NCBI GenBank assembly: GCA_905221435.1
Contig: CAJNDD010000004.1
Span: forward strand, 46,348 to 110,347
Direction of reading: 5' to 3'
Length of the DNA stretch: 64,000 nt
Source: a bacterium
Lineage (GTDB): Bacteria; Bacillota; Bacilli; Lactobacillales; Streptococcaceae
The position numbers and the translations under genes are program-made. Of the stretch, positions 33,853-53,124 are shown piece by piece. Each line of letters opens with the position of its first letter. Within the stretch, counting starts at the first letter, position 1. The notes below the pieces were generated by a model, which was not told the DNA's origin, made no database searches, and saw nothing but the letters and a program-made list of their open reading frames with translations.

Positions 33853-33864
33853 ATTGTTTAATCC

Positions 33865-33898: not shown

Positions 33899-33961
33899 CA
33901 AACACTTTCCTACTTACTATTTTTATACTAGGTCTTAACGACTATAAATGTAAAGTCTAGG

Positions 33962-35725
33962 CTAGAAATCAAAGAATTCCGTTGCTTTTTTTAACAGCAA
34001 CTCCGTATACTCAGGATCATCTTGCGCTGTCGTTACTTGTAACTGAACCATTTCAAGATCATCTGTAATCATTCCATCTGCTCCAAGCCGAACTGCTTTA
34101 TCAAAAGCCTCAGAACCATTAACAGTCCAAACATAAAGCTTTTGTTCCGTATACCAAAGTTTAGTGACAAAGTATTCATCCAATGTTGAATACTCCATGG
34201 TATATCCTGTTGCCTTGGTTTTTGGGAAAATACTGTTATATGGTAGGATGAAATAAACTGGAATAGTCGAATCATATTTCAGAACTTGGTCAATCACATG
34301 ATAGTCTAGTGATTGCATCTGATGACCATACTGCTTGATAATCGGTCCATACTTCTCTAGGAAACGTTCCATCATTTGTGGACTGTCTTTTTTACTGGTT
34401 TTGATTTCAATCAACAATCTTTGATGAAGTTCATTCGCGCGATTGAGATAGTCATCAAAACTAGATATCTTGGTTCGATAGCCATTTTCAGAAATATCTA
34501 GCTCCGTCAACTCCTCTAGGGTCAAGTCTTGAGGATTAGCGTTAATACCGGCCAAGTTCTTAAGATTGGCATCATGCATCATCACAAACTGACCATCCTT
34601 GGTCTCCTGCACATCCATTTCAATTAAGTCTGGCTTCAGTTGAGCTGTTTTTTCCAAAGACTGAACAGTGTTTTGTACACCATTTTTATTGCTTACTCCC
34701 CTATGAGAAATCACTAAAGGCGTGTTGGTATCAGGAGATTCCAGATAGATATAGCCTTCTAGCGCAAAAAAGATACTAGCACAACCCATAACCCCCCACC
34801 TCATCAGGTGATCTTTTTTTCTTCTTGGCATAATCTCCAGCTCCTCTCCTGTCAAAAAGGAGACAAACTTAACAAGGAAATAACTCAACGCCATATAGTG
34901 AACATTTTTCATCAAGACAAAGTTGATGAGACCAAGAATTAAAGATTCTTTCTGAGTGAAATTATCCATTACAAGCTGAGTAAATAGCAAAGGAAGCAAT
35001 AACACAAAGAAGAAGAGATAAGTTTTTATAATAATGAGAAGCAAGTTCCAAGCGTAAAAGAGAACTTGTTTTTTTGTCTTTTGCAGACTATATTTCACCC
35101 CTTCTCTCACAGTTTTTCTTTCAAAGAGGATTTTGGGAAGGGCAAACATGAAACGAACGGAAATATAAAGAAAAATCCAAGCAGACACAAAAATCATCAA
35201 ACCCACCAGCCAGTGCTTGTCTTCCAGGTAAGTCACGATAAAGTCTGGAATGACGATTTTATTCAAGTAATAAATTTTTAAAATTTTCCTTATAAAAGGA
35301 AAGAGCATGGCCACATAGAAGAAAACAAAGGCCATCTTGCAGAAACTCAAGCGTTTCACAAATAGAAAACTCTGGTGAAATACTTTGCGACTGTATTCAA
35401 TTAAGGTTCTCTTTTCATGATAAAGAAGGTGGCGTGCCCCAATAAAGAGGAGGCAAATTTGAAAATAAGCTACCAAAAGATTGATTGCTATCAAAAAGAG
35501 AAAGGCCAGACTGATCAATGGTGAACTCGTGATAATGGCAAAAATATTATTGTAAGAAATAAACAAATAGCCTGTTTGGCTGAGTAAAAGACCAGCAAGC
35601 CAAGAATTGAGAGGTAGCCACAGATATTCCACCATCATGAAAATTAAGAAAAAGAGGAAAAGAACTTTATCTAGGTTGAGGTAAATTTTCCTAAAACCTA
35701 GTTTTTTAGGTTTTTCAGGTTTCAT
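33962..35725 (-). CDS. Membrane-anchored glycerophosphodiester phosphodiesterase
   Basis: 587 residues. The N-terminal half (about 20-325) has some eight hydrophobic helices, the GDPD-associated membrane domain. The C-terminal half (about 335-580) is the TIM-barrel phosphodiesterase: VISHRGVSNKNGVQNT (catalytic His-Arg), EMDVQETKDGQFVMMHDANL (metal Glu/Asp and second catalytic His) and LIEIKTSKKD. Cleaves glycerophosphodiesters, possibly from phospholipid or teichoic-acid turnover, on the outer face of the membrane (inference). Follows the exonuclease gene by 9 bp. Confidence 0.92.
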   Translation of the reverse strand: MKPEKPKKLGFRKIYLNLDKVLFLFFLIFMMVEYLWLPLNSWLAGLLLSQTGYLFISYNNIFAIITSSPLISLAFLFLIAINLLVAYFQICLLFIGARHLLYHEKRTLIEYSRKVFHQSFLFVKRLSFCKMAFVFFYVAMLFPFIRKILKIYYLNKIVIPDFIVTYLEDKHWLVGLMIFVSAWIFLYISVRFMFALPKILFERKTVREGVKYSLQKTKKQVLFYAWNLLLIIIKTYLFFFVLLLPLLFTQLVMDNFTQKESLILGLINFVLMKNVHYMALSYFLVKFVSFLTGEELEIMPRRKKDHLMRWGVMGCASIFFALEGYIYLESPDTNTPLVISHRGVSNKNGVQNTVQSLEKTAQLKPDLIEMDVQETKDGQFVMMHDANLKNLAGINANPQDLTLEELTELDISENGYRTKISSFDDYLNRANELHQRLLIEIKTSKKDSPQMMERFLEKYGPIIKQYGHQMQSLDYHVIDQVLKYDSTIPVYFILPYNSIFPKTKATGYTMEYSTLDEYFVTKLWYTEQKLYVWTVNGSEAFDKAVRLGADGMITDDLEMVQLQVTTAQDDPEYTELLLKKATEFFDF

Positions 35726-35734
35726 TAGGCACTC

Positions 35735-36325
35735 CTAGTCTAAAAATTGAGATAAGTCTAAGCTATTAAAGGGATTCATAGAAAAACTACTCTGGTCTTC
35801 TAATAATAGCTTTCCTTCATCCGATTCCAAAAAAGCTTCGTAAACACGCGCCGTCATGCGGGCATCCTCTAAACTATTATGTGACTTCCCGTGAAAGCCT
35901 AAAAAATTCGCAACAGTTTGTAATTTAAGATTTGCTATTCCGTGTAGGTCAGAACTACGGCGTTCAAAAGCCTCATCATATACATCAACCTTATACTGGT
36001 CACGATAATCAATACCATGCTCCAAGAGAATAGGCAAATCACTCTTAGCTGCATTGTAACCTACGATAGGTAAGTTGCCAACAAATGCCTGAAAGTCTTT
36101 TAAAACTTTTTCTACTTTTGGCGCATCTTTCAAAGTTTCAGCTGTGATTCCAGTCAAACCATTGATAAAACTCTTTAAAGGTACTTTGGTATGAACATAA
36201 GAATCAAAAGCAGCGCTTTCTTGTCCATCTTGAAAGCGAATTGCTGATACTTGAATTAAATGGGTAACCCCTTCATGTTGATTGAATTCCAAATCAAAGG
36301 CGATATAGTCTCTTAATTTTTCCAT
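35735..36325 (-). CDS. DnaQ-like 3'-5' exonuclease
   Basis: 196 residues. DEDDh exonuclease fold: Exo I FDLEFNQHEG (Asp-x-Glu), Exo II VGYNAAKSDLPILLEHGI and Exo III SHNSLEDARMTARVYEAF (His and Asp). Similar to the free-standing epsilon-like nucleases of Firmicutes; may process DNA or RNA ends. First gene of a two-gene unit with the GDPD gene. Confidence 0.88.
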   Translation of the reverse strand: MEKLRDYIAFDLEFNQHEGVTHLIQVSAIRFQDGQESAAFDSYVHTKVPLKSFINGLTGITAETLKDAPKVEKVLKDFQAFVGNLPIVGYNAAKSDLPILLEHGIDYRDQYKVDVYDEAFERRSSDLHGIANLKLQTVANFLGFHGKSHNSLEDARMTARVYEAFLESDEGKLLLEDQSSFSMNPFNSLDLSQFLD

Positions 36326-36360
36326 GTTTTACCTCAATTACTATTCAAATTAAACTATAA

Positions 36361-36408
36361 ATAATAAAAGAAGCCATTAGGTTAGTTAATAACCCAAACA
36401 GCTTCTTT
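36361..36408 (-). terminator. Terminator of rocS
   Basis: AAAGAAGC / GCTTCTTT outer stem with an inner GGTTA / TAACC pairing; the T-run follows on the minus strand. It begins inside the rocS stop codon. Confidence 0.75.
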
Positions 36409-36901
36409 ATTTTCCTCCAAAAAGGCGAGCAAAAAAGCCTTTTTTGGTTGCTTGGACTTCTTCTTTTGCTTGGTCCAACTCGAGTTTCAAGCTTTCTTGA
36501 TCCTTCATAGCTTGAAGAGTTAACTGTTGCTGTTGGTCCAACTGTTTGTCCTTTTCAGCAATCTGGCGATCTTTGATGCGCATCTGCTCATCTTTTTCTG
36601 CTAACTGCTGGTCTTTGGCCTTGAGTTGCTCATACAATCGAAGAATTTCAGCATTTTTCTCATCAACCAAGATTTCCATCAGTTCGCGTTGTTTGACATC
36701 TTCACTGACTGGTTCATCTTCAAAAATTGTTTTTTTATAGATTTCTTCTAGCTTGATTAAACCACTTCGAGTAACTACAGTTACACCTTTGTCATTTTTT
36801 TTTGTGTCCTCTTCTGGAAGTTCTTTGACACGATTGTTGATTGCCTGACGAGATAGTCCTAAGACCTCTGCAATCTCGCTGACGGTCATTTCAATACTCA
36901 T
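36407..36901 (-). CDS. rocS: Chromosome segregation regulator RocS
   Basis: 164 residues. N-terminal helix-turn-helix (about 1-45, TVSEIAEVLGLSRQAINNRV), long coiled coil (about 75-150, with repeated KDxQxAEKDxQ-type heptads), and a short amphipathic C-terminal helix KKGFFARLFGGK. This is the layout of pneumococcal RocS, reported to bind DNA and the membrane and to couple chromosome segregation with capsule and division control. Monocistronic with its own strong promoter and terminator. Confidence 0.85.
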   Translation of the reverse strand: MSIEMTVSEIAEVLGLSRQAINNRVKELPEEDTKKNDKGVTVVTRSGLIKLEEIYKKTIFEDEPVSEDVKQRELMEILVDEKNAEILRLYEQLKAKDQQLAEKDEQMRIKDRQIAEKDKQLDQQQQLTLQAMKDQESLKLELDQAKEEVQATKKGFFARLFGGK

Positions 36902-36940
36902 AATATCCTCTGAAACGTTTTCTAGCTTTTCTTTATTTAA

Positions 36941-36969
36941 ATCTTATCATAAGCTAGATAAACTGTCAA
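36941..36969 (-). promoter_or_regulatory. Promoter of rocS
   Basis: TTGACA, 17 bp, TAAGAT with extended TGA. Confidence 0.75.
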
Positions 36970-36977
36970 ATTTCCGC

Positions 36978-37670
36978 TTAATCCAAGGCCTTTAAAAAGG
37001 CTAGTAATACTTGGGCAGAACGACGTCCAGCTTCGATAATAAACTCATCAAAAGAGATCGAGGCTTCATGATTGGCATTGTCACTCATAGCACGAATGAC
37101 GAGGAAAGGTAGGCCAAGAGCCTGAGCTGCTTGTGCAATAGCAGCCCCTTCCATTTCAACTGCTAAAACTTCAGGGAAGTGAGATTTGATACTAGCAATC
37201 TTATCATCTCCAGCTATAAAACTGTCTCCTGTAGCAATCAAGCCTAGGTGCCATGTCTGTTCTAATTGAGATAAGTTTTCTTTAATTCTAGTGATGAACT
37301 TCTGATCTGATTCAAAGTAAAGAGGTTGACCAGCCATCTGACCATAAGCATAGCCAAATGCAGTCACATCCACATCATGGTAGGCCAGTTTATCCGCGAT
37401 TACTACATCACCGACAGCGATCCCTTCTGCAAGTGCACCTGCAGAACCTGTATTGATGATGGCTTCTACTTGGAAATGGTCAGCTAGAACAGCTACACTC
37501 ATAGCCGACATGACCTTCCCAATCCCACTCTGAACTAGGACAACTTGAGTATTACCAACAGTGCCAGTATAGTAGGTATTTCCGAGAACTTGGACTTCTT
37601 GCGCTCTATCTAAATTTTGAGTCAAGTGTACGAGCTCTTCTGGCATTGCTGCAATGATTCCAATTTTCAT
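36978..37670 (-). CDS. mtnN: MTA/SAH nucleosidase
   Basis: 230 residues. Hydrolyses 5'-methylthioadenosine and S-adenosylhomocysteine to adenine and the thioribose product (Pfs), feeding the LuxS/AI-2 and methionine salvage routes. MKIGIIAAMPEELVHLTQNL start, VVLVQSGIGKVMSAMSVAVL and the catalytic region VEMEGAAIAQAAQALGLPFL and IRAMSDNAN (catalytic Asp) are intact. Last gene of glmU-NUDIX-macP-mtnN. Confidence 0.96.
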   Translation of the reverse strand: MKIGIIAAMPEELVHLTQNLDRAQEVQVLGNTYYTGTVGNTQVVLVQSGIGKVMSAMSVAVLADHFQVEAIINTGSAGALAEGIAVGDVVIADKLAYHDVDVTAFGYAYGQMAGQPLYFESDQKFITRIKENLSQLEQTWHLGLIATGDSFIAGDDKIASIKSHFPEVLAVEMEGAAIAQAAQALGLPFLVIRAMSDNANHEASISFDEFIIEAGRRSAQVLLAFLKALD

Positions 37671-37686
37671 TTGATGTCCTTTCCAA

Positions 37687-37998
37687 TTACAAGAGTTTCA
37701 TCGCTAAAATTAACAAAATCAAGAGTAGTATGACTGCAAACAAGATACGATTGAGTTTTGAATTAAAACCATTTCTCTTGGTGTTCTCAATTCGGCGACT
37801 CTTGTGAATCGTTGGCTCTACTTCGATTGTTAAGGTATCTCGACTAAAGCCGTGGTCTCTAGAACGTGAATTACCAAAATGTTGTGAAGACGTTGGTAGG
37901 ATCTTTGTTTCCTCATCATCTTGAAGAAGTGGTCCTGAGATTTTCTCACCTCGGTTGGCACGTTCAATTATTTCATCTGTTAATAAAGGTTTTCCCAT
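37687..37998 (-). CDS. macP: Cell-wall synthase accessory phosphoprotein MacP
   Basis: 103 residues. Cytoplasmic tail (1-80) with [20 protein letters not shown] and the segment [10 protein letters not shown], then one C-terminal membrane helix (about 84-102). MacP activates the class A synthase PBP2a in S. pneumoniae and is phosphorylated by StkP on a threonine in this position (Thr31 here). The gene lies 16 bp before mtnN and 11 bp after the NUDIX gene, the usual pneumococcal setting. Confidence 0.85.
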
Positions 37999-38009
37999 GG
38001 GTTGCTCCT

Positions 38010-38555
38010 CTATTTCTTTTGTAGTTCCCAGTACTGAATCGCCATAATGGTCTTGGCATCACAGATATGACCTGACTGGATCAGGTTTTTGGCTTCCTCT
38101 AGACTTACTTCTAGGACTTCCAAGGTTTCATCATCATCTTGTGGGCGAGGATTTTGCACCTTGACCAAATCACTAGCAAGGTAGAGTTTTAATTTTTCGT
38201 TGCAAAAACCAATCGCAGAATAGAAATCGTACAACAGTTCTAATTTACCAGTGTAGGCAACTTCTTCTTCCAATTCACGAAGTGCCGCTGCCATTGGATC
38301 TGCATTTTCACCAATTTCCAGTTTACCTGCAGGAATCTCATAAGAGACCGCCTCAATAGCCTTTCGGTATTGCTTAACGAGGACAATTTTGTCCTTAGCT
38401 GTCACAGCTAGTACACAAACAGCCCCATTGTGAAAAATCAAGTCACGTTGAGCAGTCCCCTTTCCTTCTGGTAGTTCCACCTGATCTTGTACTAGTTTGA
38501 AAATAGGACCTTGATAGATTTCCTTCCGACTAATCGTTTTTTCTTCAAATTCCAT
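38010..38555 (-). CDS. NUDIX hydrolase, ADP-ribose pyrophosphatase type
   Basis: 181 residues. NUDIX box region [20 protein letters not shown] continues EEVAYTG and matches the NudF/ADP-ribose pyrophosphatase group. Likely cleaves ADP-ribose or other nucleoside diphosphate sugars. Sits between glmU (9-bp gap) and macP (11-bp gap), so co-expressed with UDP-GlcNAc synthesis. Confidence 0.88.
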
Positions 38556-38564
38556 GACAAACTC

Positions 38565-39971
<1,407 letters not shown>

Positions 39972-39975
39972 TTAT

Positions 39976-39984
39976 ATTATACCA
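39976..39984 (-). promoter_or_regulatory. Extended -10 promoter of glmU operon
   Basis: TGGTATAAT on the minus strand, 32 bp before glmU. Confidence 0.6.
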
Positions 39985-40028
39985 TAATTTAAGTTATGAG
40001 GAAGAATCAATCAAGAAAAAACGTTAAA

Positions 40029-40565
40029 GATGGACCGCACTTATAAGGATAAAGTCCAAATCTATGACTAAGGAAACAAGGAATCAGCTTAAAGCAACTT
40101 TCAAATATATTTGGAGTACGTATTTCTACATTGACATACACGTTTAGTTTGATTGACCGTTACGGGATAGAGTTCGTCAAAAAAGGAAAAAATCATTACT
40201 ATTCTCCTGAATTAAAACAAGAAATCATTGATAAAGTTTTACTTGAAGGTCGTTTGCAACTAAGCGTTGCTCTGGATTATGCTCTCCCAAGTAGTGTGAT
40301 ACTTTCAAATTGGCTGGCACAATACAAGAAAAACGGGTATACCATTGTTGAGAAAACAAGAGGAAGGCCAGATAGGATGGGACGTAAACGAAAGAAAACT
40401 TGGGAAGAAATGACAGAACTAGAGCGACTTCAGGAGGAGAATGAACGCCTACGTACTGAGGTGGCCTACCTAAAAAAGTTAAAAGAGTTAGAGGAAAGGG
40501 ACGAGGCCCTAGAGCGAGAAAGGCAGAGACAGTTAGAGAAATGGTTTCAGGAGGATTTCGACTAG
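40029..40565 (+). pseudogene. IS3-family orfA (HTH protein), broken
   Basis: Begins [13 protein letters not shown], then a stop and frameshifts up to about 40145. From [20 protein letters not shown] on, the frame is open to 40565, covering the second HTH, a basic [12 protein letters not shown] stretch and a leucine-zipper-like end ([20 protein letters not shown]) used for OrfAB assembly. Confidence 0.85.
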
Positions 40566-41380
40566 ATTTACTTCTTGAAACAGCACGTTTAGCTCGCTCA
40601 ACTTACTATTATCAGTTGAAGCAGATGGATGGGCTTGACAAAGATAAAGATCTTAAAACCGAAATTCAAGCTATTTTTACTGAGCACAAAGGAAATTATG
40701 GCTATCGCTGAATAACTCTTGAATTGAGGAATCGTGGTCATATAGTAAACCATAAGAAGGTCCAACGTCTGATGAGAATCCTTGATTTAACGGCTCGAAT
40801 TCGTCGGAAACGGAAGTATTCTTCTTACCAAGGAGAGATTGGCAAGAAAGCAGAGAATCTTATTCAACGCCAATTTGAAGCACCCAAGCCAATGGAAAAG
40901 TGCTATACGGATGTGACAGAGTTTGCCATTCCAGCAAGCAGTCAAAAACTCTACTTATCGCCAGTTTTAGATGGCTTTAACAGCAAAATTATTGTTTATA
41001 ATCTTTCTTGTTCGCCTAATTTAGAACAAGTGAAAACCATGTTGGAACAGGCCTTCACAGAGGAGCAGTACGAAAATACTATTCTCCATAGTGACCAAGG
41101 CTGGCAATACCAACACGATTCTTATCATCGGTTTCTACAGAGTAAGGGAATTCAGCCATCCATGTCACGCAAGGGCAACAGCCCAGACAACGGCATGATA
41201 GAGTCCTTCTTTGGTATTCTTAAGCCTGAAATGTTCTACGGTTATGAGAAGACGTTTCAGTCACTTGAGCAATTGAAACAAGCTATTGTGAACTGCATTG
41301 ATTACTACAATAACAAACGAATTAAAGTCAAACTAAAAGGACTTAGCCCTGTGCAATACAGAACTAAATCCTTTCAATAA
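40541..41380 (+). pseudogene. IS3-family orfB (DDE transposase), one in-frame stop
   Basis: Starts at ATG 40541 in the usual overlap with orfA. A TGA at 40709-40711 replaces the Arg codon in GYR(R)ITLELRNRG. Otherwise open to 41380, with the DDE residues in CYTDVTEFAIP, LHSDQGWQYQH and NGMIESFFGILK. A single-base nonsense mutation is the only defect in this frame. Confidence 0.88.
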
Positions 41381-41443
41381 TTAATTGTCTAACTTTTCGA
41401 GGTCAGTACAATTGACTAATCTCTTTTTTTGAATTACTAAGGG

Positions 41444-41600
41444 TGCATCGAGACGAAAGAAGTTGGATATGCTATCAGTGGTATTCAGCATGACATTTGG
41501 CGAAAAACAGGGATTTATTCAGCTGTTGGCATGTCAAACAAGTTGATATTGAATTGATTTTAAGAGAAATGGCAGAGCAGGTAGCCATTCGATTGAGAAG
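41444..41600 (+). pseudogene. Possible UmuC-like Y-family polymerase relic
   Basis: Two short translated pieces in different frames, ETKEVGYAISGIQHDIWRKT with IYSAVGMSN, then VDIELILREMAEQVAIRLRR. They resemble parts of UmuC/UvrX-type lesion-bypass polymerases found on streptococcal mobile elements. The match rests on memory of the family and the fragments are short, so this is tentative. A strong terminator follows at once. Confidence 0.35.
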
Positions 41601-41621
41601 AGCAAATCGCTCTTCTTTTTT
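41596..41621 (+). terminator. Terminator before the R-M controller gene
   Basis: AGAAGAGC / GCTCTTCT, loop AAATC, followed by a T-run. Insulates the restriction island from upstream transcription. Confidence 0.9.
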
Positions 41622-41636
41622 GTTGCTTATAATCCG

Positions 41637-41664
41637 TTGCTAAATAAGCATAATCAATTAAAAT
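41637..41664 (+). promoter_or_regulatory. Likely promoter of controller-endonuclease genes
   Basis: TTGCTA, 16 bp, TAAAAT, 39 bp before the controller start. A C-box operator was looked for in 41640-41702 but no clear dyad was seen. Confidence 0.5.
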
Positions 41665-41702
41665 AGAATTCAAAGAATTTATCGAAACGGGATTGAAATT
41701 AA

Positions 41703-41918
41703 ATGATACAAGTTGAATTTGCCAAAAGAATAAAATCGTTGCGAAATGAAACTGGATTAAGTCAAGAAAAGTTTGCACTTAAAATCGGTATGGATAGAAC
41801 ATACTACGCTTCAGTTGAGTCTGGAAAGCGAAATATATCTTTGCAAAATATTGAAAAAATTGCAAACGGATTTGGAATTTCAATCTCAGAGCTGTTTTCG
41901 AAGATTGATAACCAATAA
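41703..41918 (+). CDS. XRE-family controller protein of the R-M system
   Basis: 71 residues, a single helix-turn-helix domain (about 8-62: RIKSLRNETGLSQEKFALKI, then GMDRTYYASVESGKRNISLQ). Size and position, directly before the endonuclease gene, are those of restriction-modification C proteins, which delay endonuclease expression until methylation is complete. AT-rich codon use like its neighbours. The ribosome binding site is weak. The gap to the next gene is 69 bp. Confidence 0.82.
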   Translation: MIQVEFAKRIKSLRNETGLSQEKFALKIGMDRTYYASVESGKRNISLQNIEKIANGFGISISELFSKIDNQ

Positions 41919-41987
41919 TCAAGGTTTGTTATACAGAAGGTACACTATTACAATTAAGTCAAGGAAAATGATAAGAAGAGGATAAAT

Positions 41988-43547
41988 ATGGCTAGTAATT
42001 CGCATGGTTTCGACAATGAAGCAATTATTTCAGAATATCTAAATGGGAAAAAATTTAAAGAGCTAAATTTAACGATGAAAGAATTTATCAAATATATTGG
42101 TACTACTTTGAATTTGCCTATTGATAATGATACCGAAATAAAATCTGAAATCGAGACAAATAATAAATTAAAACAAGATATTTATATATTTATTAATGGT
42201 TATAAAGTAGGTGTTAGTGTAAAACTAGGTTCAGGGAATTCTGTACATCAAGAAAAAATAGAAGACTTCATAATTTTTATAAAAGAAAATTGTAATGCGT
42301 CAGAAGAGATTTGTGATTTATGGAGATTCTTTATTTGGGCAGATGGTACACTAGATGGGACAGGGGCTACTGAAAAAGATGAATCTGGAAATATTATAAG
42401 TAGATTTAAAGCATCACAGTTTAAAATGCAATATCCTAGAAAACGTGAGAAGCTATTAACATTTATTGAAGAAAATAAGACAAAACTTATTGAGAGAGTT
42501 GTTTTTGTTGGAAAAAATAATAGTTCTGTAGATTTTGTATACCATGGAACTGAAAAACAAGGTAGCTGGATTTCTAAGCAAGAGGCTCTAGATTATATGT
42601 CTAGGATAAAGCCAAAATCCAATAGAGCCTGTTTCCCTATTGGACATTTGACTATTCAAGCTTGGAATGTTTCTCAAACAGGTAACACTGAACATAAACG
42701 TGGAGAAATTCAATTTAAATATGGCAGCTTACAAAGCGATTTAGAAACACTACTGAAAAAGAATGCTGAGACAGTGGGTACTTTTTTGGGTGACATAGAA
42801 GAATTTGGACTTACTCATGTATTGAATAAAAATAAAGATAGTAAAATGTGGGAAATTCTACTCCCAAATGAGAAAGATTTTTCTAATTATTATGCTGTTA
42901 AAGTATCTACAAATCAATTATCCACTTTAAGCAATAAAAAGGTAAAAACAAAAAGTGATGCCTATGTAATTAAGGCAGATATTGATCGTAAAATATTACT
43001 CAAAAAACAATTTGTTCTGGAAGAATCGGATATAAAGGAAATTAAATATGAAGTGGTACCTGGTACAGGGGTCTCAATAAAATTGAAAGATTCTAAGCAT
43101 TTTACTTATCAAAAATTCACATCTAATTCCTTTAAACTTGCATTTTCTGATATTGAGGAAATTGAATTCTGGTTAGTTTCGTTGTTAATATACAGTAGTG
43201 ATACAGAAAGACATAAAAATAATAAAATTATTTCAGACTTTGATTACGACTTAAATCAGTATTTACAAAAAGTTCATGAAAAGATGGGTATTGAAATTAT
43301 TGATGTGGATAATAAACAATTTTGGGATTTAATTAGGCAATCAGCACAAAAGGTTATTAAAGAGAAAATCCAGTCCGATCAAATTCTAAAAGAAAATATT
43401 TTTATGGGGAAGCACTGGTTTAAAGAGCCATATCATGCCATGTATATTTTTGAGAAAGGAAAGTTGAGAAAGAACACTATTTCGGATTTCTCAATTACAA
43501 CTGGTTCTGGTCGAAGCAATGGTAAGTATACAATCGAAATTAAATAG
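41988..43547 (+). CDS. Probable type II restriction endonuclease
   Basis: 519 residues; I do not recognise a named enzyme. The N-terminal part contains KLKQDIYIFINGYKVGVSVK followed by LGSGNSVHQE: an Asp at about 64, a beta strand, then Ser-Val-Lys at 77-79, which fits a PD-(D/E)XK nuclease core with Ser in the variable position. The rest, with LWRFFIWADGTLDGTGATEK and FPIGHLTIQAWNVSQTGNTE, may hold DNA recognition. Linked to a controller gene upstream and two cytosine methyltransferases convergently downstream, which is the main reason for the call. AGAGG precedes the start. Strong AT bias suggests transfer. Confidence 0.72.
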   Translation: MASNSHGFDNEAIISEYLNGKKFKELNLTMKEFIKYIGTTLNLPIDNDTEIKSEIETNNKLKQDIYIFINGYKVGVSVKLGSGNSVHQEKIEDFIIFIKENCNASEEICDLWRFFIWADGTLDGTGATEKDESGNIISRFKASQFKMQYPRKREKLLTFIEENKTKLIERVVFVGKNNSSVDFVYHGTEKQGSWISKQEALDYMSRIKPKSNRACFPIGHLTIQAWNVSQTGNTEHKRGEIQFKYGSLQSDLETLLKKNAETVGTFLGDIEEFGLTHVLNKNKDSKMWEILLPNEKDFSNYYAVKVSTNQLSTLSNKKVKTKSDAYVIKADIDRKILLKKQFVLEESDIKEIKYEVVPGTGVSIKLKDSKHFTYQKFTSNSFKLAFSDIEEIEFWLVSLLIYSSDTERHKNNKIISDFDYDLNQYLQKVHEKMGIEIIDVDNKQFWDLIRQSAQKVIKEKIQSDQILKENIFMGKHWFKEPYHAMYIFEKGKLRKNTISDFSITTGSGRSNGKYTIEIK

Positions 43548-43570
43548 AGCTGTTTTGAACAGCTCTATTT
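43542..43570. terminator. Bidirectional terminator inside both R and M stop regions
   Basis: AAATAGAGCTGTT / AACAGCTCTATTT, perfect 13-bp stem, 3-base loop. The endonuclease stop (43545-43547) and the methyltransferase stop (43565-43567) lie in opposite arms. Confidence 0.92.
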
Positions 43571-44536
43571 ATTTATTAAAGATAATTCATTTAAAAAATT
43601 TTTGAATATAAGTCGAATCACTGGGACTGCAACACTGTTGCCAAGTTGTTTATAACTTTGGCTGTAATTTTCTTTTAGTTTATAATCATCTGGGAATCCC
43701 ATAATTCTTAAACATTCTACGACTGTATATTTTCTGTATTGACTATAAACTACCGGAACGTTATTCCCACCAGTTCCCATTTTTGCAGTAAGACATGGTG
43801 AAATACCATTAGAACTGAAAGAAACTTTTGAAGGCCTGATGTTATTTGCTATAATTGGCTCTAATGTTCTATCTGCTTTTTGTAGGTACTCCTGAATATT
43901 GTTATCAATATTCTTAATTGCAATATCTGATACCCTGTAATCACTTGAAACTTTCTTCTCTAAAATTTTGCTTAAGGTGTTAGTTAGAGAGATTTTTTCA
44001 GGGAATACATTGTTTAAATCTACAGATTCAGCAAGATCATTTCGAATTCCAATACAATACCATCTATTTCGATTTTGTGGAATATTATAGTCTTTTGCGT
44101 TAAGTAGTTTCCATTTTGCTGTGTAACCAATTTCAGAAAGGACATCGAGGATAACTCTTAGAGTTTTCCCTTTATCGTGGTTTACTAGTCCAGATACATT
44201 TTCCAGAATAAAACCTTTTGGTTTCTTTTCTTTTAAGATTCTAGCTACCTCAAAGAAAAGAGTTCCACGAGAATCTTCAAAACCAAGTCTTTTCCCTGCT
44301 ATTGAAAAAGGTTGACAAGGGAAACCAGCGCAAAGAAAATCATGATCAGGAATACTATGTGATTCAATAAGAGTAATATCTCCATCTGGATAATCACCAA
44401 AATTATTGTAGTAGGTTTCTGCGGCAAATTTGTCTATTTCACTGGAGAAAACACATTCTCCACCAAGAGATTCTAGTGCTAATCGAAAGCCACCAATGCC
44501 TGCAAATAAATCGATAAAAGTAAAATTATTTTTCAT
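43565..44536 (-). CDS. DNA (cytosine-5) methyltransferase, downstream copy
   Basis: 323 residues. All m5C motifs are visible: I (FIDLFAGIGGFRLALESLG), IV with catalytic Cys74 (AGFPCQPFSIAGKR), VI (ENV at about 112-114), VIII (QNRNRWYCIGIR), a target-recognition region of about 70 residues that ends in SPCLTAKMGTGGNNVPVVYS, IX (RKYTVVECLRIMGFPDDY) and X (QLGNSVAVPVI). Protects host DNA against the linked nuclease. Start overlaps the stop of the other methyltransferase by 11 bp. Target sequence unknown. Confidence 0.93.
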   Translation of the reverse strand: MKNNFTFIDLFAGIGGFRLALESLGGECVFSSEIDKFAAETYYNNFGDYPDGDITLIESHSIPDHDFLCAGFPCQPFSIAGKRLGFEDSRGTLFFEVARILKEKKPKGFILENVSGLVNHDKGKTLRVILDVLSEIGYTAKWKLLNAKDYNIPQNRNRWYCIGIRNDLAESVDLNNVFPEKISLTNTLSKILEKKVSSDYRVSDIAIKNIDNNIQEYLQKADRTLEPIIANNIRPSKVSFSSNGISPCLTAKMGTGGNNVPVVYSQYRKYTVVECLRIMGFPDDYKLKENYSQSYKQLGNSVAVPVIRLIFKNFLNELSLINK

Positions 44537-45611
44537 TGTTATTTATATACTCGCTTAGATGATTTAGAATTGCAGTAATTACTGGTGGGCTTACTGCATT
44601 TCCTGATTGTTTGTAAATTTGAGTATCGCTCATACCCGTTGAAACGAGATTATGAATGAATCCTTTTGAGAATCCTTGTACTTTTAGATTTTCAATAGGT
44701 GTTAATTTACGAATTTTGGAATTTACAAAAATCTTAGTGGAATCTGATCTTGCTAAAACAGTGGGTGAAATTCCATGAATAGAATAAACTCGTCGCTGTC
44801 TTTCTTGATCGTTATGCACATCTTTAGGAAGATCAAAAAGTTTAATAATTTTGTGCTCTTCAACTTCAATGACTGTATCTCTTATTTCAGTAATATACTT
44901 AAGAACAGGTTCTTTTGAGAAAAAGTATTTTTCGTCTACATTAGATTCTAAGATATCTTTTAGGAATTGTGGTTTACAGTCAACATTAAGTGTATTAAAG
45001 AAATTAAAGCTATTAAAATCTTGATTATTTAAATAAGATTTTAAAGAGTTAATTTTAAGGCTATTAACATCAGTTACAAACTTTTCGGTTGTATGATTAA
45101 GAATTCCAACAATAAATGTACGAGTACGGTTTTGAGGTAATCCTACATCTTTTGAATTTAAAATTGTAAAATCAACTGTGTAACCCAATTTAGATAAAGT
45201 TTCTAAAATGACTTTTATTGTTTTCGAAGAGTCATGACTAACTAAGTTTGCAACGTTTTCTAGTAAAAAATACTTTGGTTTTTTTTCTTTCAAAATACGA
45301 GCTATATCAAAGAATAGAGTTCCTCTTGTATCTTCAAAACCATTTCGTTTTCCTGCGATAGAAAATGCTTGGCAAGGGAAACCTCCAAGCAATAAGTCAT
45401 GATCAGGAACTTTTTTTTCGTCAACTTTTGTTATATCACCTGCTTGGTACACATCTGGAAAGTTTGCTTTGTACGATATTGTTGCGAATTTATCTATTTC
45501 ACTTGAGAAAATAGTGTTTCCTTTTAGCTGAGAATTTTCTAAACCAAGTTCAAAGCCACCAATTCCAGAAAATAAACTAACAACACGTAATTTATTGTTT
45601 TTATTTTTCAT
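44526..45611 (-). CDS. DNA (cytosine-5) methyltransferase, upstream copy
   Basis: 361 residues, with motif I VVSLFSGIGGFELGLENS, IV GGFPCQAFSIAGKRNGFEDT (Cys80), VI LLENV (118-120), VIII LPQNRTRTFIVGIL, a longer target-recognition region (about 185-310), IX RKLTPIENLKVQGFSKGF and X QSGNAVSPPVITAIL. Different target-recognition region from its neighbour, so the two probably modify different strands or sites. First gene of the two-methyltransferase operon; its promoter is at 45696-45724. Confidence 0.93.
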   Translation of the reverse strand: MKNKNNKLRVVSLFSGIGGFELGLENSQLKGNTIFSSEIDKFATISYKANFPDVYQAGDITKVDEKKVPDHDLLLGGFPCQAFSIAGKRNGFEDTRGTLFFDIARILKEKKPKYFLLENVANLVSHDSSKTIKVILETLSKLGYTVDFTILNSKDVGLPQNRTRTFIVGILNHTTEKFVTDVNSLKINSLKSYLNNQDFNSFNFFNTLNVDCKPQFLKDILESNVDEKYFFSKEPVLKYITEIRDTVIEVEEHKIIKLFDLPKDVHNDQERQRRVYSIHGISPTVLARSDSTKIFVNSKIRKLTPIENLKVQGFSKGFIHNLVSTGMSDTQIYKQSGNAVSPPVITAILNHLSEYINNNEK

Positions 45612-45695
45612 GAGATAATTTACTCCATAATGATTTTCTAAATAATGTTTTTTAATATCGTAGCAGGGGTATAATTTTGAAACATTTTAGCTACT

Positions 45696-45724
45696 ATTCT
45701 ATCAGAAAAACCTAAAATTGTCTA
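45696..45724 (-). promoter_or_regulatory. Promoter of the methyltransferase operon
   Basis: TAGACA, 17 bp, TAGAAT with extended TGA; gives a leader of about 75 bases. Confidence 0.65.
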
Positions 45725-45802
45725 AGGCTAATGACTCCTCAGTATAATTGAGTTTATATTCCGACCTACTAATATATTCGTAAAAATAACATCAAACAAA
45801 AA

Positions 45803-45826
45803 AGTGTACAGAAACTTTTGTACACT
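45803..45826 (-). terminator. Terminator of truncated gene at island edge
   Basis: AGTGTACA / TGTACACT stem with an 8-base loop; TTTTTTG follows on the minus strand, directly after the stop of the fragment at 45829. Confidence 0.8.
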
Positions 45827-45828
45827 CT

Positions 45829-46005
45829 TTATCCATAATATTCAATCTTAGATGGCTCGATAATCTCATTATGGAAGCTCTCTACACTCATCAATACATA
45901 CCCTTTTGATTGGTCAGGTGTGGCTAAGATGAGTTCTTCATAAGAAGGTAGAGAAGTAATATCATTTAGCAAGATATTCAGTTCTTTAACCTTGCAGAGT
46001 TGGAA
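45829..46005 (-). pseudogene. 3' fragment of an unidentified gene
   Basis: The last 58 codons of a protein, reading LFQLCKVKELNILLNDITSL, then PSYEELILATPDQSKGYVLM, then SVESFHNEIIEPSKIEYYG and a stop. Upstream it is cut by the IS3 copy that begins at about 46006. It ends in an intact terminator, so it is the tail of a once-expressed gene. I do not recognise the family. Confidence 0.55.
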
Positions 46006-46628
46006 TAGTCCAACGTCTGATAAAAGTCCTTGGTTTAACAGCTCGTATCCGTCGAAAACGGAAGTATTCTTCCTACCAAGGAGAGATTGGCAAGAAAGCA
46101 GATAACCTTATTCAACGCCAATTTGAAGCACCCAAGCCAATGGAAAAGTGCTATACGGATGTGACAGAGTTTGCCATTCCAGCAAGCAGTCAAAAACTCT
46201 ACTTATCGCCAGTTTTAGATGGCTTTAACAGCAAAATTATTGCTTTTAATCTTTCTTGTTCGCCTAATTTAGAACAAGTACAAACGATGTTAGAACAGGC
46301 ATTCACAGAGAAGCACTATGAGAATACGATTCTCCACAGTGACCAAGGCTGGCAATACCAACACGATTCTTATCATCGGTTTCTAGAGAGTAAGGGAATT
46401 CAAGCATCTATGTCCCGCAAGGGCAACAGCCCAGACAATGGGATGATGGAGTCCTTCTTTGGCATTTTGAAATCCGAAATGTTTTACGGCTATGAGAAGA
46501 CATTTAAATCACTTAATCAATTGGAACAAGCTATTGTGGACTACATTGATTACTACAACAACAAACGAATTAAAGTCAAACTAAAAGGACTTAGTCCTGT
46601 GCAGTACAGAACTAAATCCTTTCAATAA
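46006..46628 (+). pseudogene. IS3-family orfB fragment
   Basis: Open frame from the truncation point to 46628, so about 207 codons of the DDE transposase survive, including CYTDVTEFAIP, LHSDQGWQYQH and NGMMESFFGILK. An internal ATG at 46140 could start a shorter product, but the N-terminal part of the protein is lost. Not functional. Confidence 0.85.
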
Positions 46629-46658
46629 TTATTTGTCCAACTTTTTGGGGGCAGTATA
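46006..46658 (+). mobile_element. IS3-family element, 5'-truncated copy 2
   Basis: Begins within orfB (GTCCAACGTCTGATAAAAGT) and runs to the right end TGTCCAACTTTTTGGGGGCA then GTATA. Highly similar to 40770-41410 and in the same direction. orfA and the left end are missing. Confidence 0.88.
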
Positions 46659-46669
46659 TTAGAATTTTT

Positions 46670-47860
46670 TTATTTTACAGCTTCTTTCAAAGCGTCTACC
46701 TTGTCCAAACGTTCCCATGGAAGGTCAATATCTGTACGTCCCATGTGTCCATAAGCCGCTGTTTGACGGTAAATTGGCCGTTTGAGGTCTAGCATTTGGA
46801 TAATTCCTGCAGGGCGAAGATCAAAGATTTGACGCGCTGCTTTTTCAAGCTTGCTTTCAGCTACTGTTCCTGTACCAAAAGTATCGATACGGACAGAAAC
46901 AGGTTGCGCTACCCCGATAGCGTAGGCCAATTGCACTTCTGCCTTCTTAGCCAAACCTGCAGCAACGATATTCTTGGCAATGTAGCGAGCCGCATAAGAG
47001 GCTGAACGGTCCACTTTAGTCGCATCCTTACCAGAGAAGGCACCACCACCATGACGAGAGTAGCCACCATAGGTATCCACGATAATCTTACGACCAGTCA
47101 AGCCTGAGTCCCCTTGAGGTCCACCGATTACGAAACGACCAGTCGGATTGATGAAGAATTTTGTCTGTTCATCCAAGTAAGAGGCTGGAATAACCTCTTT
47201 GATGACCTTGCTAATCACATCTTGATGGATTTGTTCATTACTAACTTCTGGGTCGTGCTGAGTTGAAATAACGACTGTATCCACACGTACTGGACGGTCA
47301 TTTTCATCATACTCAACTGTAACTTGTGATTTAGCATCTGGACGGAGATAGCTGATTTCACAAGACTTACGAAGTTCTGCCAAACGACGAACCAACTTGT
47401 GGCTAAGTGAGATTGGTAAAGGCATGAGTTCTTCTGTCTCATCCACCGCAAATCCAAACATAAGACCTTGGTCACCAGCACCAATCAAGTCCAGTGGATC
47501 TTGATCTGCATTTCCACGAACTTCCAAGGCTTCGTTAACACCTTGGGCGATATCTGGTGACTGCTCAACAAGTGACGGATGAACTCCCACCGTCTCCGCA
47601 GAAAAACCATACTCTGTATTGGTATAACCAATCTCTGCAATGGTATCACGAACCACTCGGTTAATATCTACATAAGCATGTGTAGAAATTTCACCAAAAA
47701 CATGGACCGAACCTGTGTATACAGCTGTCTCGGCAGCAACGTGCGCATCTGGATCCTTTGCTAAAATAGCATCCAAAATCGCATCTGAAATTTGGTCTGC
47801 AATCTTATCCGGATGCCCCTCAGATACAGATTCAGACGTGAATAATTTACGTTCTGACAT
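46670..47860 (-). CDS. metK: S-adenosylmethionine synthase
   Basis: 396 residues. Makes SAM from methionine and [23 protein letters not shown] start, signature motifs [12 protein letters not shown] and [23 protein letters not shown] segment ([19 protein letters not shown]) are intact, along with [20 protein letters not shown]. The Shine-Dalgarno GGGGGG is part of an SMK-type riboswitch that would hide it when SAM is abundant. The gene is flanked on both sides by IS relics yet appears intact. Confidence 0.97.
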
Positions 47861-47942
47861 AAAAATGTCCCCCCTTAAAAAATATTGTTATAGAGTTACA
47901 AAGTACTGATAGAAATTTCTACCATCTTATCGGGACTATATA
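47861..47942 (-). promoter_or_regulatory. SMK box (SAM-III) riboswitch before metK
   Basis: The leader reads AGTCCCGATAAGATGG, then a GTAGAAATTTCTATC hairpin, then ACTTTGTAAC, and ends with GGGGGGACAT before the start codon. AGTCCC (anti-SD, about 47932-47938) can pair with the GGGGGGAC Shine-Dalgarno at 47867-47874. This is the arrangement of the SMK riboswitch known from metK leaders of lactic acid bacteria, where SAM binding blocks translation. Confidence 0.85.
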
Positions 47943-47950
47943 ACCTAATC

Positions 47951-47959
47951 ATTATAACA
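47951..47959 (-). promoter_or_regulatory. Extended -10 promoter of metK
   Basis: TGTTATAAT on the minus strand; the transcript would start near 47944, exactly at the 5' edge of the riboswitch. Confidence 0.65.
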
Positions 47960-48049
47960 TGAATCTTTGAAAAATTCCCATATTATTACTATTTTTCTCA
48001 ACAGGAAAATATTTTCTAGTACCAACTAATAAAAATTTCTTAAAGTAGA

Positions 48050-48137
48050 CTGAATCGTACTCCATGAGTTAGGCAGAAAAATCTAACTTATGGAGTGTTT
48101 CACTATGAAATTAATTTATGATGATAAGATCTTACCG
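48050..48137 (+). mobile_element. Left-end fragment of an IS3-family element
   Basis: Contains CTCCATGAGTTAGGCAG, similar to the inverted complement of the IS3 right ends. The start of orfA follows (ATG at 48105, MKLIYDDKIL, compare the [12 protein letters not shown] of copy 1). It is cut by the ISL3 relic at about 48138. CTCCATGAGTTAG and CTAACTTATGGAG also form a hairpin. Confidence 0.55.
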
Positions 48138-48597
48138 GAAGATCATTCAACAAGATAGCCTTAAACTCAGCGATAAGCGATGTTATTGACCTACTTTTCG
48201 CATACACTTGATAAATAAAGAGATCCTAGACAAGCTTTTGAACTATTCAGAAGACTTGAGACACCACTATAATCTCTATCAACTCTTGCTTTTCCACTTT
48301 CAGAATAAGGAAGCTGAAAATTTTTCGGAATCATTGAGTACAATCTAAAGCAGCTTCATCCTCTTTTAAAATCTTTCTTAAGAATAAATCAACTCCCTCC
48401 AATTACCCTATTCCAACGCCAAATTGGAAGCGACTAATAATCTCATTAAACTTATCAAACGCAATGCTTTTGGTTTTCGGAATTTTGAAAATTTCAAAAA
48501 CCGTATTTTCATTGCTCTAAATATCAAAAAAGAAAGGACGAAAATTGTCCTTTCTCGAGCCTAGCTGACTTTAACCCACTACAGTTGACAATGAGCC
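48138..48597 (+). mobile_element. ISL3-family 3' relic
   Basis: Encodes the decayed C-terminal part of the IS1167-like transposase (HHYNLYQLLLFHFQNKEAEN, then LPYSNAKLEATNNLIKLIKR, ending LSRA and stop at about 48563). Stops and frameshifts occur around 48330-48400. Right end CCCACTACAGTTGACAATGA then GCC. No left end is present. Confidence 0.85.
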
Positions 48598-48600
48598 ATT

Positions 48601-48632
48601 AAAAAAACAGTAAAACCACTTGGTTCTACTGT
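48601..48632 (-). terminator. Terminator of the yutD-rlmN-vanZ-ABC-F operon
   Basis: ACAGTAGAACCA / TGGTTTTACTGT stem, then TTTTTTT on the minus strand. Confidence 0.85.
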
Positions 48633-48672
48633 CTCATTTTTAAAATCATTTCACTTCTTTGAATAATTCATT

Positions 48673-50214
48673 TTAGGTTAGCTTGTTGAAATCCCAGATT
48701 TGGTCCATCCAACCTTCATAGAAGTCTGGTTCATGGCAAACCATAAGGATGCTTCCTTTGTATTCTTTGAGAGCGCGTTTGAGTTCGTCCTTAGCATCCA
48801 CATCTAGGTGGTTGGTCGGCTCATCAAGCACCAAGACGTTATTTTCACGGTTCATCAAGAGACAGAAACGTACCTTGGCTTGTTCCCCACCTGACAAGAC
48901 CTGAATTTGGCTTTCGATGTGCTTAGTTGTCAAGCCACAACGGGCAAGGGCTGCACGAACTTCTGCTTGATTGAGTGCAGGAAAGGCATTCCAGACAGCC
49001 TCTAGTGGTGTTTGGCGATTGCCCCCTTCTACTTCCTGCTCAAAGTAACCAAGTTCTAAGTAGTCACCTCGTTCAACTTCCCCAGCGATTGGCGGGATAA
49101 TGCCCAAGAGAGACTTCAAGAGAGTTGTTTTCCCGATACCATTGGCCCCAATAATGGCAACCTTTTGATTGCGTTCAAAAGTAAGGTTTAAAGGCTTTGT
49201 CAGAGGACGGTCATAACCAATCTGCAAGTCCTTGGCTTGGAAGATAAAGCGCCCTGGCGTACGAGCTGGTTTGAAATCAAAGGATGGTTTGGGTTTCTCA
49301 CTTTGCAGTTCGATAATATCCATCTTATCAAGTTTCTTTTGACGGGACATGGCCATGTTTCGAGTTGCGACACGGGCTTTATTGCGGGCTACGAAATCCT
49401 TGAGGTCGGCAATTTCTTTTTGTTGACGCTCATAAGCTGCTTCCAGTTGAGATTTCTTCATAGCATAGACTTCTTGGAACTGGTAGTAATCACCAGAATA
49501 ACGCGTCAACTGTTGATTTTCAACATGGTAGACGATATTGATCACGTCGTTGAGGAAAGGAATATCATGCGAAATAAGGACAAAGGCATTCTCATAATTT
49601 TGGAGATAACGCTTGAGCCAGTCAATGTGTTCAGCATCCAAGTAGTTGGTTGGCTCGTCCAGTAACAAGATATCTGGTTTTTCAAGGAGGAGTTTGGCCA
49701 AGAGGACCTTGGTTCTTTGTCCACCTGATAAGGCTGTTACATCTGTATCCATGCCATAGTCCATGACACCGAGAGCACGCGCCACTTCATCAATCTTAGC
49801 ATCCAAAGTATAGAAGTCACGACTCTCCAAACGGTCTTGGAGTTCGCCAACTTCTTCCATGAGTGCATCAATATCCGCTCCGTCTTCTGCCATTTCCATA
49901 TAGAGGTCATTGATACGAGCTTCTGCTTTGAAAAGCTCATCAAAGGCTGTCCGCAAAACATCACGCACGGTTTGACCTTCCTTTAGCACAGCATGCTGAT
50001 CCAGGTAGCCAGCAGTCACATACTTAGACCACTCCACTTTCCCTTCATCTGGCAACATCTTACCTGTCACAATGCTCATAAAGGTTGATTTTCCTTCACC
50101 ATTGGCACCGACTAAGCCGATATGTTCTCCCTTGAGGAGACGGAAAGACACATCTTCAAAAATTGCACGGTCACCAAAACCGTGACTTAAATTTTTAACT
50201 TCTAAAATACTCAT
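48673..50214 (-). CDS. ABC-F family ATPase
   Basis: 513 residues. Two ABC domains in one chain without membrane segments: Walker A GANGEGKST and GANGIGKTT, signatures LSGGQRTKV and LSGGEQAKV, Walker B LLLDEPTNYLD and LVLDEPTNHLD. The linker (about 235-310) is charged and helical. This is the YkpA/YbiT-like branch of ABC-F proteins, which act on the ribosome to relieve stalling or control translation; an antibiotic-resistance role is possible but not indicated. Last gene of an operon with vanZ-like, rlmN and yutD, one base after the preceding gene. Confidence 0.9.
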   Translation of the reverse strand: MSILEVKNLSHGFGDRAIFEDVSFRLLKGEHIGLVGANGEGKSTFMSIVTGKMLPDEGKVEWSKYVTAGYLDQHAVLKEGQTVRDVLRTAFDELFKAEARINDLYMEMAEDGADIDALMEEVGELQDRLESRDFYTLDAKIDEVARALGVMDYGMDTDVTALSGGQRTKVLLAKLLLEKPDILLLDEPTNYLDAEHIDWLKRYLQNYENAFVLISHDIPFLNDVINIVYHVENQQLTRYSGDYYQFQEVYAMKKSQLEAAYERQQKEIADLKDFVARNKARVATRNMAMSRQKKLDKMDIIELQSEKPKPSFDFKPARTPGRFIFQAKDLQIGYDRPLTKPLNLTFERNQKVAIIGANGIGKTTLLKSLLGIIPPIAGEVERGDYLELGYFEQEVEGGNRQTPLEAVWNAFPALNQAEVRAALARCGLTTKHIESQIQVLSGGEQAKVRFCLLMNRENNVLVLDEPTNHLDVDAKDELKRALKEYKGSILMVCHEPDFYEGWMDQIWDFNKLT

Positions 50215-50215
50215 T

Positions 50216-50695
50216 CTAATTCCTTATCTTGTTTTTATGCAGTCCTTTATAGAGGACCCAAGCCAGATAGCCTCCCAAGGTATTGGTCCACAAATCATCA
50301 ATCTCAAAGACGCGATTAAAATCAAAGAAAAAGTCTAAGACCAGTTGTGTACACTCAATTCCCAGGCTCAGTAGAAAACTGAGAAGGAGGATTTTTTTGG
50401 TTTGCCGCAAGTTTGGACAGAGATAAATCAGTTGAAAGACCAGAGGGAACAGCAAGAAGACATTTAAAATATTCTGCAAAAAGATCCAAAAGACTTGTCC
50501 CACACTAGTCACTTCACCCAGTTTCCAAAAGGAATTTAAGGGAGTTAAAAGAAAAACCAGGCGTCCAAAAGTTTGAATACCTGGAGTTTCCACTCCTGTA
50601 GGAAGTTGAGGTTGGGGAGTAAAGCAACAACAAATAATGCAAAAGCTGTAAATAGCCACTCCCAATTTTAAGATTAATTCTCTTTTTTTAGTCAT
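50216..50695 (-). CDS. VanZ-like family membrane protein
   Basis: 159 residues, about four hydrophobic helices. Family features are the N-terminal helix, RLVFLLTPLNSFWKLGE, NVFLLFPLVFQLIYL, and the conserved LSLGIECTQLVLDFFFDFNR with DLWTNTLGGYLAWVLYK. VanZ-like proteins are widespread in Firmicutes with no defined role in most; link to teicoplanin resistance applies only to some. One-base gaps on both sides show tight operon packing. Confidence 0.88.
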   Translation of the reverse strand: MTKKRELILKLGVAIYSFCIICCCFTPQPQLPTGVETPGIQTFGRLVFLLTPLNSFWKLGEVTSVGQVFWIFLQNILNVFLLFPLVFQLIYLCPNLRQTKKILLLSFLLSLGIECTQLVLDFFFDFNRVFEIDDLWTNTLGGYLAWVLYKGLHKNKIRN

Positions 50696-50696
50696 T

Positions 50697-51782
50697 TTAT
50701 GGATTTACCGCTGCGACTGCCTTCTGGCGATCACGTTTCATTGTATTGGAGCGCAATTGTCCACAAGCTGCATCAATATCTGTACCATGCTCTTGACGGA
50801 CAACACAGTTAATCCCTTTTTTCTTTAGGGTATCATAGAAGGCCATCACGCGCTCTTTAGGACTACGGCTATATTGGTCGTGTTCACTAACTGGATTGTA
50901 AGGAATTAAGTTTACATAAGACAATTTCTTGATGTTCTTGAGCAATTCAGCCAACTCCAAGGCTTGTTCAACGCCATCGTTGACTTCATTGAGCATGATG
51001 TATTCAAAGGTTACACGACGATTAGTTGTTTCGATATAGTACTCAATAGCTGCAAAAAGCTTTTCAATCGGAAAGGCACGGTTAATCTTCATGATGCTTG
51101 AGCGCAATTCATTATTGGGGGCATGAAGAGAAACAGCGAGATTGACCTGCACTCCTTCATTAGCAAAGTCACGAATTTTATGGGCCAAACCTGAGGTAGA
51201 AACAGTGATGTGGCGGGCACCAATCGCCATCCCCTTGTCATCATTGATGGTACGAACAAAATTCAAAACATTGTTGTAGTTATCAAATGGTTCACCAATT
51301 CCCATGACAACAATATGGCTGACACGTTCGTCCTGACCACGTTCATCAAAGTATTTCTGAACCAGCATAATCTGCGCTACGATTTCCCCGTTATTGAGGT
51401 CACGTTGCTTTTTGATCAAACCAGATGCACAGAAGGTACAACCAATATTACAGCCGACCTGAGTCGTCACACAGACTGATAAACCGTAGTGTTGACGCAT
51501 GAGTACTGTCTCAATCAACATGCCATCTGGCAACTCGAAAAGATACTTAACGGTACCGTCAGCTGACTCTTGTACAATCCGTTGTTTCAAAGGATTTACG
51601 ACAAACTGATCATTGAGCTTGGCAATCAAATCCTTGGAAAGGTTGGTCATTTCTTCAAATGACTGCACACGTTTACGGTAGAGCCATTCCCAGATTTGAT
51701 CTGCTCGGAATTTCTTTTCTCCCTGTTCTAATACCCATTCTTGCATGGTTTGACGTGTTAAACTATAAATAGACGGTTTCAT
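50697..51782 (-). CDS. rlmN: 23S rRNA (adenine2503-C2)-methyltransferase RlmN
   Basis: 361 residues. Radical SAM enzyme that methylates C2 of A2503 in 23S rRNA (and A37 of some tRNAs). The cluster motif [12 protein letters not shown] (CxxxCxxC) lies near residues 110-118 and the C-terminal catalytic cysteine is in [26 protein letters not shown] is also diagnostic. Sits 20 bp after yutD. Confidence 0.96.
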
Positions 51783-51802
51783 CTCTTCTCCTTATTCTTT
51801 AT

Positions 51803-52333: not shown

Positions 52334-52365
52334 AGTCTTCCTTTTCCACGATTACTTAACACTCT

Positions 52366-52374
52366 ATTTTACCA
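52366..52374 (-). promoter_or_regulatory. Extended -10 promoter of yutD operon
   Basis: TGGTAAAAT on the minus strand, 33 bp before yutD. Confidence 0.5.
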
Positions 52375-52414
52375 TAATTTCTAGCAATTAGCACATTTCT
52401 CATAAAAATGAAAA

Positions 52415-52438
52415 AAGTCTGACGATTTTGTCAGACTT
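52415..52438. terminator. Terminator hairpin between sodA and yutD
   Basis: AAGTCTGAC / GTCAGACTT stem with T-run on the minus strand. It is the second of two hairpins downstream of sodA. Confidence 0.85.
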
Positions 52439-52452
52439 CTGCCATATAAAGC

Positions 52453-52477
52453 AAAAAAGAGAAGATTGGCTCTTCCC
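52453..52477 (-). terminator. First terminator after sodA
   Basis: GGGAAGA / TCTTCTC stem (one G-T) followed by TTTTTT on the minus strand. Confidence 0.7.
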
Positions 52478-52487
52478 TTCCTATTTT

Positions 52488-53093: not shown

Positions 53094-53124
53094 CTGTAAT
53101 ACCTCTTTTTCTTTCTATATGAAA

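Follow-up and report, generated by a model that had tools for sequence, protein, structure and literature searches.

An apparently complete restriction-modification system of the AciI kind between two inactive IS3 remnants in a streptococcal genome

The DNA analyzed here is a stretch of 64,000 nucleotides from a member of the Streptococcaceae (contig CAJNDD010000004.1 of assembly GCA_905221435.1), in the following called the window. Between the genes glmU and metK it harbors four genes of a putative Type II restriction-modification (R-M) system, which are enclosed by two remnants of insertion sequences (IS). The gene C (41703..41918, plus strand) encodes a controller protein of 71 amino acids with a helix-turn-helix (HTH) domain and is located directly upstream of R (41988..43547, plus strand), which encodes an endonuclease of 519 amino acids with two predicted domains. 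M2 (43565..44536) and M1 (44526..45611), both on the minus strand, encode 5-methylcytosine (m5C) methyltransferases of 323 and 361 amino acids and overlap by 11 bases (44526-44536). All four reading frames are open and full length in comparison with their homologues, which bears out the controller, endonuclease and two m5C methyltransferases named in a preliminary description of the locus. The AT-richness ascribed there to the island was also confirmed: the GC content is 30.5% in the R-M gene block (41703-45611) with about 40% in the flanks, and 30.7% at 41411-46007 compared with 39.7% (30000-39944) and 41.3% (46670-56670) on the two sides. A consensus scan placed a terminator-like hairpin (43541..43571, no strand assigned) between R and M2, on which R and M2-M1 would converge; terminator-like sites numbered 7, compared with a mean of 2.0 in shuffled sequences. 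The count of promoter-like sites (25 versus 22.6 in shuffles) was uninformative, and no convincing pair of C-boxes was detected upstream of C.

A search of plasmid proteins with R identified two records, one of which is pAciIRM from Arthrobacter citreus NEB 577 (CP053690). R is 42% identical to the pAciIRM protein over residues 2-519, hence over its full length. The plasmid record labels this protein as hypothetical; we read it as R.AciI because of the name of the plasmid, the gene order and the methyltransferase. The latter is a fused protein of 703 amino acids, the first half of which is 62% identical to M1 and the second half 63% identical to M2. The HTH protein encoded beside R on pAciIRM shares 47% identity with C (30 of 64 residues). 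Profile searches agree with these assignments, since C matched PF01381 and the PADLOC model Control_protein, both methyltransferases matched PF00145, and R matched the PADLOC Type II endonuclease model PDLC03402 at 1.6e-124; in Pfam and NCBIfam R was unmatched at 0.001. A published account describes the AciI system as R.AciI together with the composite double methyltransferase M1~M2.AciI and C.AciI, the endonuclease being one chain that carries two catalytic domains (PMC4081073). For strain NEB577, m5C was reported at CCGC (PMC8112702). Full-length homology of R, two m5C methyltransferase units and a C gene beside R, which we took as the marks of an AciI-type system, were all found in the window. 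On the basis of these comparisons the window system appears to be a streptococcal member of the known AciI kind, apparently complete and probably functional.

If the system works as its homologues suggest, the asymmetric site CCGC/GCGG would be methylated on one strand by M1 and on the other by M2. R would cut the unmethylated site with two different catalytic domains as a Type IIT enzyme, and C would time the expression of R. Another reading is that the system is AciI-like by descent and recognizes a different site, or is silent. It could draw on the identity of just 42% between R and R.AciI and of 43% and 47% in the specificity regions of the methyltransferases, but the latter values greatly exceed the M1-M2 control, none of the four reading frames is interrupted, and the HinP1I/MspI-like fold predicted for R suits a site of the type SCGS. 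We regard this second reading as distinctly unlikely. Avoidance of CCGC was not detected in the 64-kb window. Two other tetranucleotides are under-represented in positions 1-64000, namely GATC with 272 occurrences on the two strands together versus 580 expected, and CCGG with 58 seen versus 106 expected. With the AciI assignment, genes left partly blank by Pfam and NCBIfam gain a probable name and target.

The structural model of R consists of two domains. The N-terminal half is predicted to adopt the HinP1I/MspI fold, and the C-terminal half gave a weak fold match among the families listed by VIA-align. HinP1I and MspI recognize the palindromic sites GCGC and CCGG, respectively, and this family cuts after the first base. 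Both are only 16-18% identical to R over the aligned residues, and no relative of R was detected by sequence among solved structures. An alignment of 56 sequences of the R family revealed that D64, S77, E89, E346, S363 and K365 are invariant in all 56 and K79 in 55 of them. HinP1I is described as monomeric, with a single catalytic site (PMC4081073), which differs from the two domains predicted for R. Some relatives contain parts of the endonuclease as separate proteins: in three clostridial loci (L001-L003) a protein resembling the N-terminal half of R (254 amino acids in L001) precedes R, and in a phage relative R is present in two pieces. The methyltransferases exist in both states as well. 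The metagenomic protein P0131 (628 amino acids, representing 132 sequences) combines M1 and M2 in one chain, sharing 97% identity with M1 over 308 residues and 98% with M2 over 319 residues, so that fused and split forms coexist at 97-98% identity. A tentative possibility, to which we give somewhat less than even weight, is that the asymmetric Type IIT enzyme was built by joining a HinP1I/MspI-type domain to a second nuclease domain, giving the mixed site CCGC/GCGG, that the component parts persist as separate proteins within the family, and that the methyltransferases alternate in parallel between a fused and a split state. The R family offers a testable case of a two-domain endonuclease with an asymmetric site arising from a HinP1I/MspI-like domain, and it is this record of endonuclease assembly that would raise the interest of the find.

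Genome surveys with one genome per species, which are uninformative about strains, revealed the R protein in none of 284 Streptococcus genomes (the positive control worked). M1 was found in 0 of the 284 at 1e-60, in a run without control, and the R profile in none of 335 Streptococcaceae genomes at 1e-20, likewise without a positive control. Close relatives of R are P0001, with 94% identity and found in 23 contigs, and a protein named after Streptococcus suis with 78% identity, which indicates that the system is present in some streptococci. Six further loci were located in named contigs, which belong to a metagenome bin of Clostridium sp., Lachnoclostridium phytofermentans (two loci, one of them partial), an uncultured Clostridia bin, a gut bacterium and Alkaliphilus peptidifermentans; viral contigs contained one weak locus only. 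An AciI-type system in Streptococcus was not recognized in short listings of open-licence papers, REBASE being outside this scope.

The R-M genes lie between a left IS copy at 40029..41410 and a right copy at 46008..46650, both on the plus strand. Both match the transposase profile NF033516 (250.1 and 193.6 bits, cutoff 160) and can be assigned to the IS3 family. The left copy is a nearly whole element that has lost its left end and is disrupted by a frameshift early on and by an in-frame stop, whereas the right copy consists of the 3' part only; the right terminal dinucleotide of the IS is changed. Over the 3' part that they have in common, the two copies agree at 576 of 631 aligned bases (91.3%). 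The preliminary view that the R-M genes form an acquired island enclosed by two inactive IS3 remnants in the same orientation is correct, but its picture of two near-identical 3' halves holds for the orientation and fails for the degree of identity and for the left copy. Between the left copy and C, at about 41442..41618 (plus strand), debris in two frames resembles umuC/ImpB genes. This assignment is weakly supported, with phage matches only at E 0.04 and a match to IMS_C at E 0.018, short of the Pfam cutoff. Between M1 and the right copy, at about 45829..45999 (minus strand), lies a remnant that encodes the last 56 residues of a small protein of streptococci, assigned by comparison with P0121-P0130; the start is lost, no match was found in plasmids and phages, and nothing above cutoff in Pfam or PHROGs. 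The truncated foreign genes reported earlier are hence present as remnants, although not at the outer edges of the island; they adjoin the R-M genes, within the stretch bounded by the two IS copies. RNA families were not detected at 39000-50000, nor tRNAs in the 64-kb window.

The nearest relative among the genomes compared, G001 (41% of sampled 31-mers), was aligned with the window over positions 31263-64000. It is collinear over this range except for two differences: between glmU and metK it contains one IS without R-M genes, and repeats of the gdhA end differ near 57-61 kb, where the window carries at 60499-60801 a partial repeat of the gdhA 3' end (longer copy at 55372-56718). The left junction of the single IS of G001 is that of the left copy in the window, and its right junction is that of the right copy. 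All three lesions of the left copy, namely the missing left end, the frameshift and the premature in-frame stop, recur in this IS, and the changed right terminal dinucleotide is also the same in G001. Of the 284 Streptococcus genomes only G001 showed a match across the left IS junction among the matches listed, those omitted being weaker.

These observations bear on the composite transposon to which the island had been likened, in which two IS3 copies brought the R-M genes as one unit and decayed afterwards. Two IS copies pointing the same way around foreign, AT-rich genes would suit such an origin. Against it, G001 contains both outer junctions without the cargo and with identical damage, the IS copies are 91% identical to each other while relatives at other loci are equally close or closer, and with the left IS end missing the flank in which to look for a target-site duplication is undefined. 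Near-identical copies, intact outer ends and junctions specific to the cargo were each looked for and not found, and we rejected the composite transposon as highly improbable.

The two halves of the left copy have different affinities. For this comparison we used 17 IS stretches selected from the hits of a search, the G001 locus and the two window copies, and partial copies were counted where they cover the part of the query in question. The 5' half of the left copy is 97.5% identical to the IS of G001, with no more than 84.6% for any other copy in the comparison, which we read as identity by descent. Its 3' half shares 92.9% identity with an IS of G049 and 92.0% with the right copy, but only 87.8% with the IS of G001; this drop of identity inside the left copy is significant (p 1.8e-12). 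The right copy in turn is closest to another IS of G001 (C48, 93.6%), followed by that of G049 (92.3%) and the left copy (92.2%). A 5' half like that of G001 combined with a 3' half and a right copy that are closer to IS elsewhere fits a resident IS with a replaced 3' part.

The converse history has to be weighed here, namely that an ancestral R-M island was deleted in G001 by recombination between two IS copies and that the 3' half of the remaining IS was later overwritten from another IS. G001 indeed looks as a deletion would have left it, with the left junction of the left copy, the right junction of the right copy and one IS; to this extent the deletion product foreseen in the preliminary description would resemble G001. 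As a simple recent deletion G001 does not qualify, since the 3' half of its IS matches neither window copy well (87.7-87.8% with the left and 86.1-86.2% with the right copy). This half contains 57 private sites, and its 39 left-like and 21 right-like sites are interleaved; a single point of switching from left-like to right-like sites was sought and not found. It is no closer to the other IS of G001 (C47 85.5%, C48 85.2%), so that a source for the overwriting was unseen among the copies compared, and the absence of R from all 284 Streptococcus genomes also speaks against an ancestral island. Loss in G001 is in our opinion unlikely, though it deserves to be taken seriously.

For the window we favor a replacement. 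A dead IS3 relic would have resided first between glmU and metK. The imported segment would have consisted of IS 3' sequence, the umuC-like debris, the R-M genes, the debris of the small gene and again IS 3' sequence, and it would have entered by homologous recombination between IS copies, thereby replacing the 3' part of the resident IS. These streptococci are competent for transformation, and on this basis the DNA was probably taken up by natural transformation. Since a near relative has the same dead IS without the defence genes, it is more likely that the cassette was swapped in by DNA exchange than that it was carried by a jumping element. That both parts of the interpretation hold jointly, an AciI-like Type II R-M system and its arrival by homologous recombination from IS to IS, we consider likely. 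The window and G001 then represent an occupied and an unoccupied site for studying how dead IS relics serve as homology for swaps of defence genes in streptococci.

The left neighbor glmU (38565..39944, minus strand) is an open reading frame with DNA matches in G001 and 35 other Streptococcus genomes, and the right neighbor metK (46670..47860, minus strand) was identified by Pfam. The island does lie between the two genes, but they are not an ancestral pair. No glmU was found near metK in 18 of 18 other genomes (about 9 kb covered on that side in 16 of them, only 1.8 kb in G046 and 4.3 kb in G029), and in the complete genomes G033, G035 and G008 the two genes are 239-258 kb apart. The comparison of glmU-metK intervals proposed earlier was unworkable as framed, metK being joined to the locus only in G001 among the matches listed. 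G001 has two metK genes: the one next to glmU is a second copy, and the other is located on contig C10 in a stretch matching the metK regions of five other genomes. Two nearly full-length metK matches were obtained in 2 of 98 genomes searched, G001 and G044. On its other side metK is joined to an ABC ATPase gene, an arrangement found in 1 of 284 genomes (G001) among the matches listed. In 10 of 11 other genomes glmU and the ABC gene are in opposite orientation and 278-501 kb apart; in G040 the orientation is the same. Their orientation and distance elsewhere suggest that the locus, with the metK-ABC gene side at 46670-50214, sits at a rearrangement point or synteny break, which fits an inversion of at least some 300 kb when most of the compared relatives are taken as reference. 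A piece of 77 bases at 48051-48127 looks like the left end of complete copies of the same IS family, matching 8 of 9 other copies with 80-83% identity, and is also present in G001 (98.6%). The right end of an IS thus lies on one side of metK and a scrap of a left end on the other. The adjacent segment 48132-48597, between metK and the ABC gene, recurs with about 80-86% identity in many Streptococcus genomes away from metK.

Among the related systems, the loci L001-L005, a Staphylococcus kloosii plasmid and the Terrisporobacter phage TPDSL_ph1 encode homologues with identities of 32-62% for R, 55-63% for M1 and 56-66% for M2. In L001-L004 and the phage, R converges on M2-M1 as in the window. 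The additional protein resembling the N-terminal half of R that precedes R in L001-L003 distinguishes these loci from the window, and L001 contains in addition a vsr gene (L001:6464-8053, together with the N-half-like protein). For the Vsr protein of L001, a search of the window (E <= 1) gave no match, and neither did searches of L002-L005 and L118-L120 (E <= 1e-5). HgaI was our initial guess from the two m5C methyltransferases and was abandoned once pAciIRM turned out to be a close match. According to the published account HgaI and MhoVI likewise have two m5C methyltransferases for an asymmetric site, and MhoVI has an XRE regulator, but their site is GACGC and differs from that of AciI (PMC12376442); the likeness is one of published description. 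The AciI system itself comprises the same four functions as the window system. It differs from it in that all genes point in one direction, whereas M2-M1 converge on C-R in the window, and in that the methyltransferases form one fused protein, in contrast to the separate genes M1 and M2.
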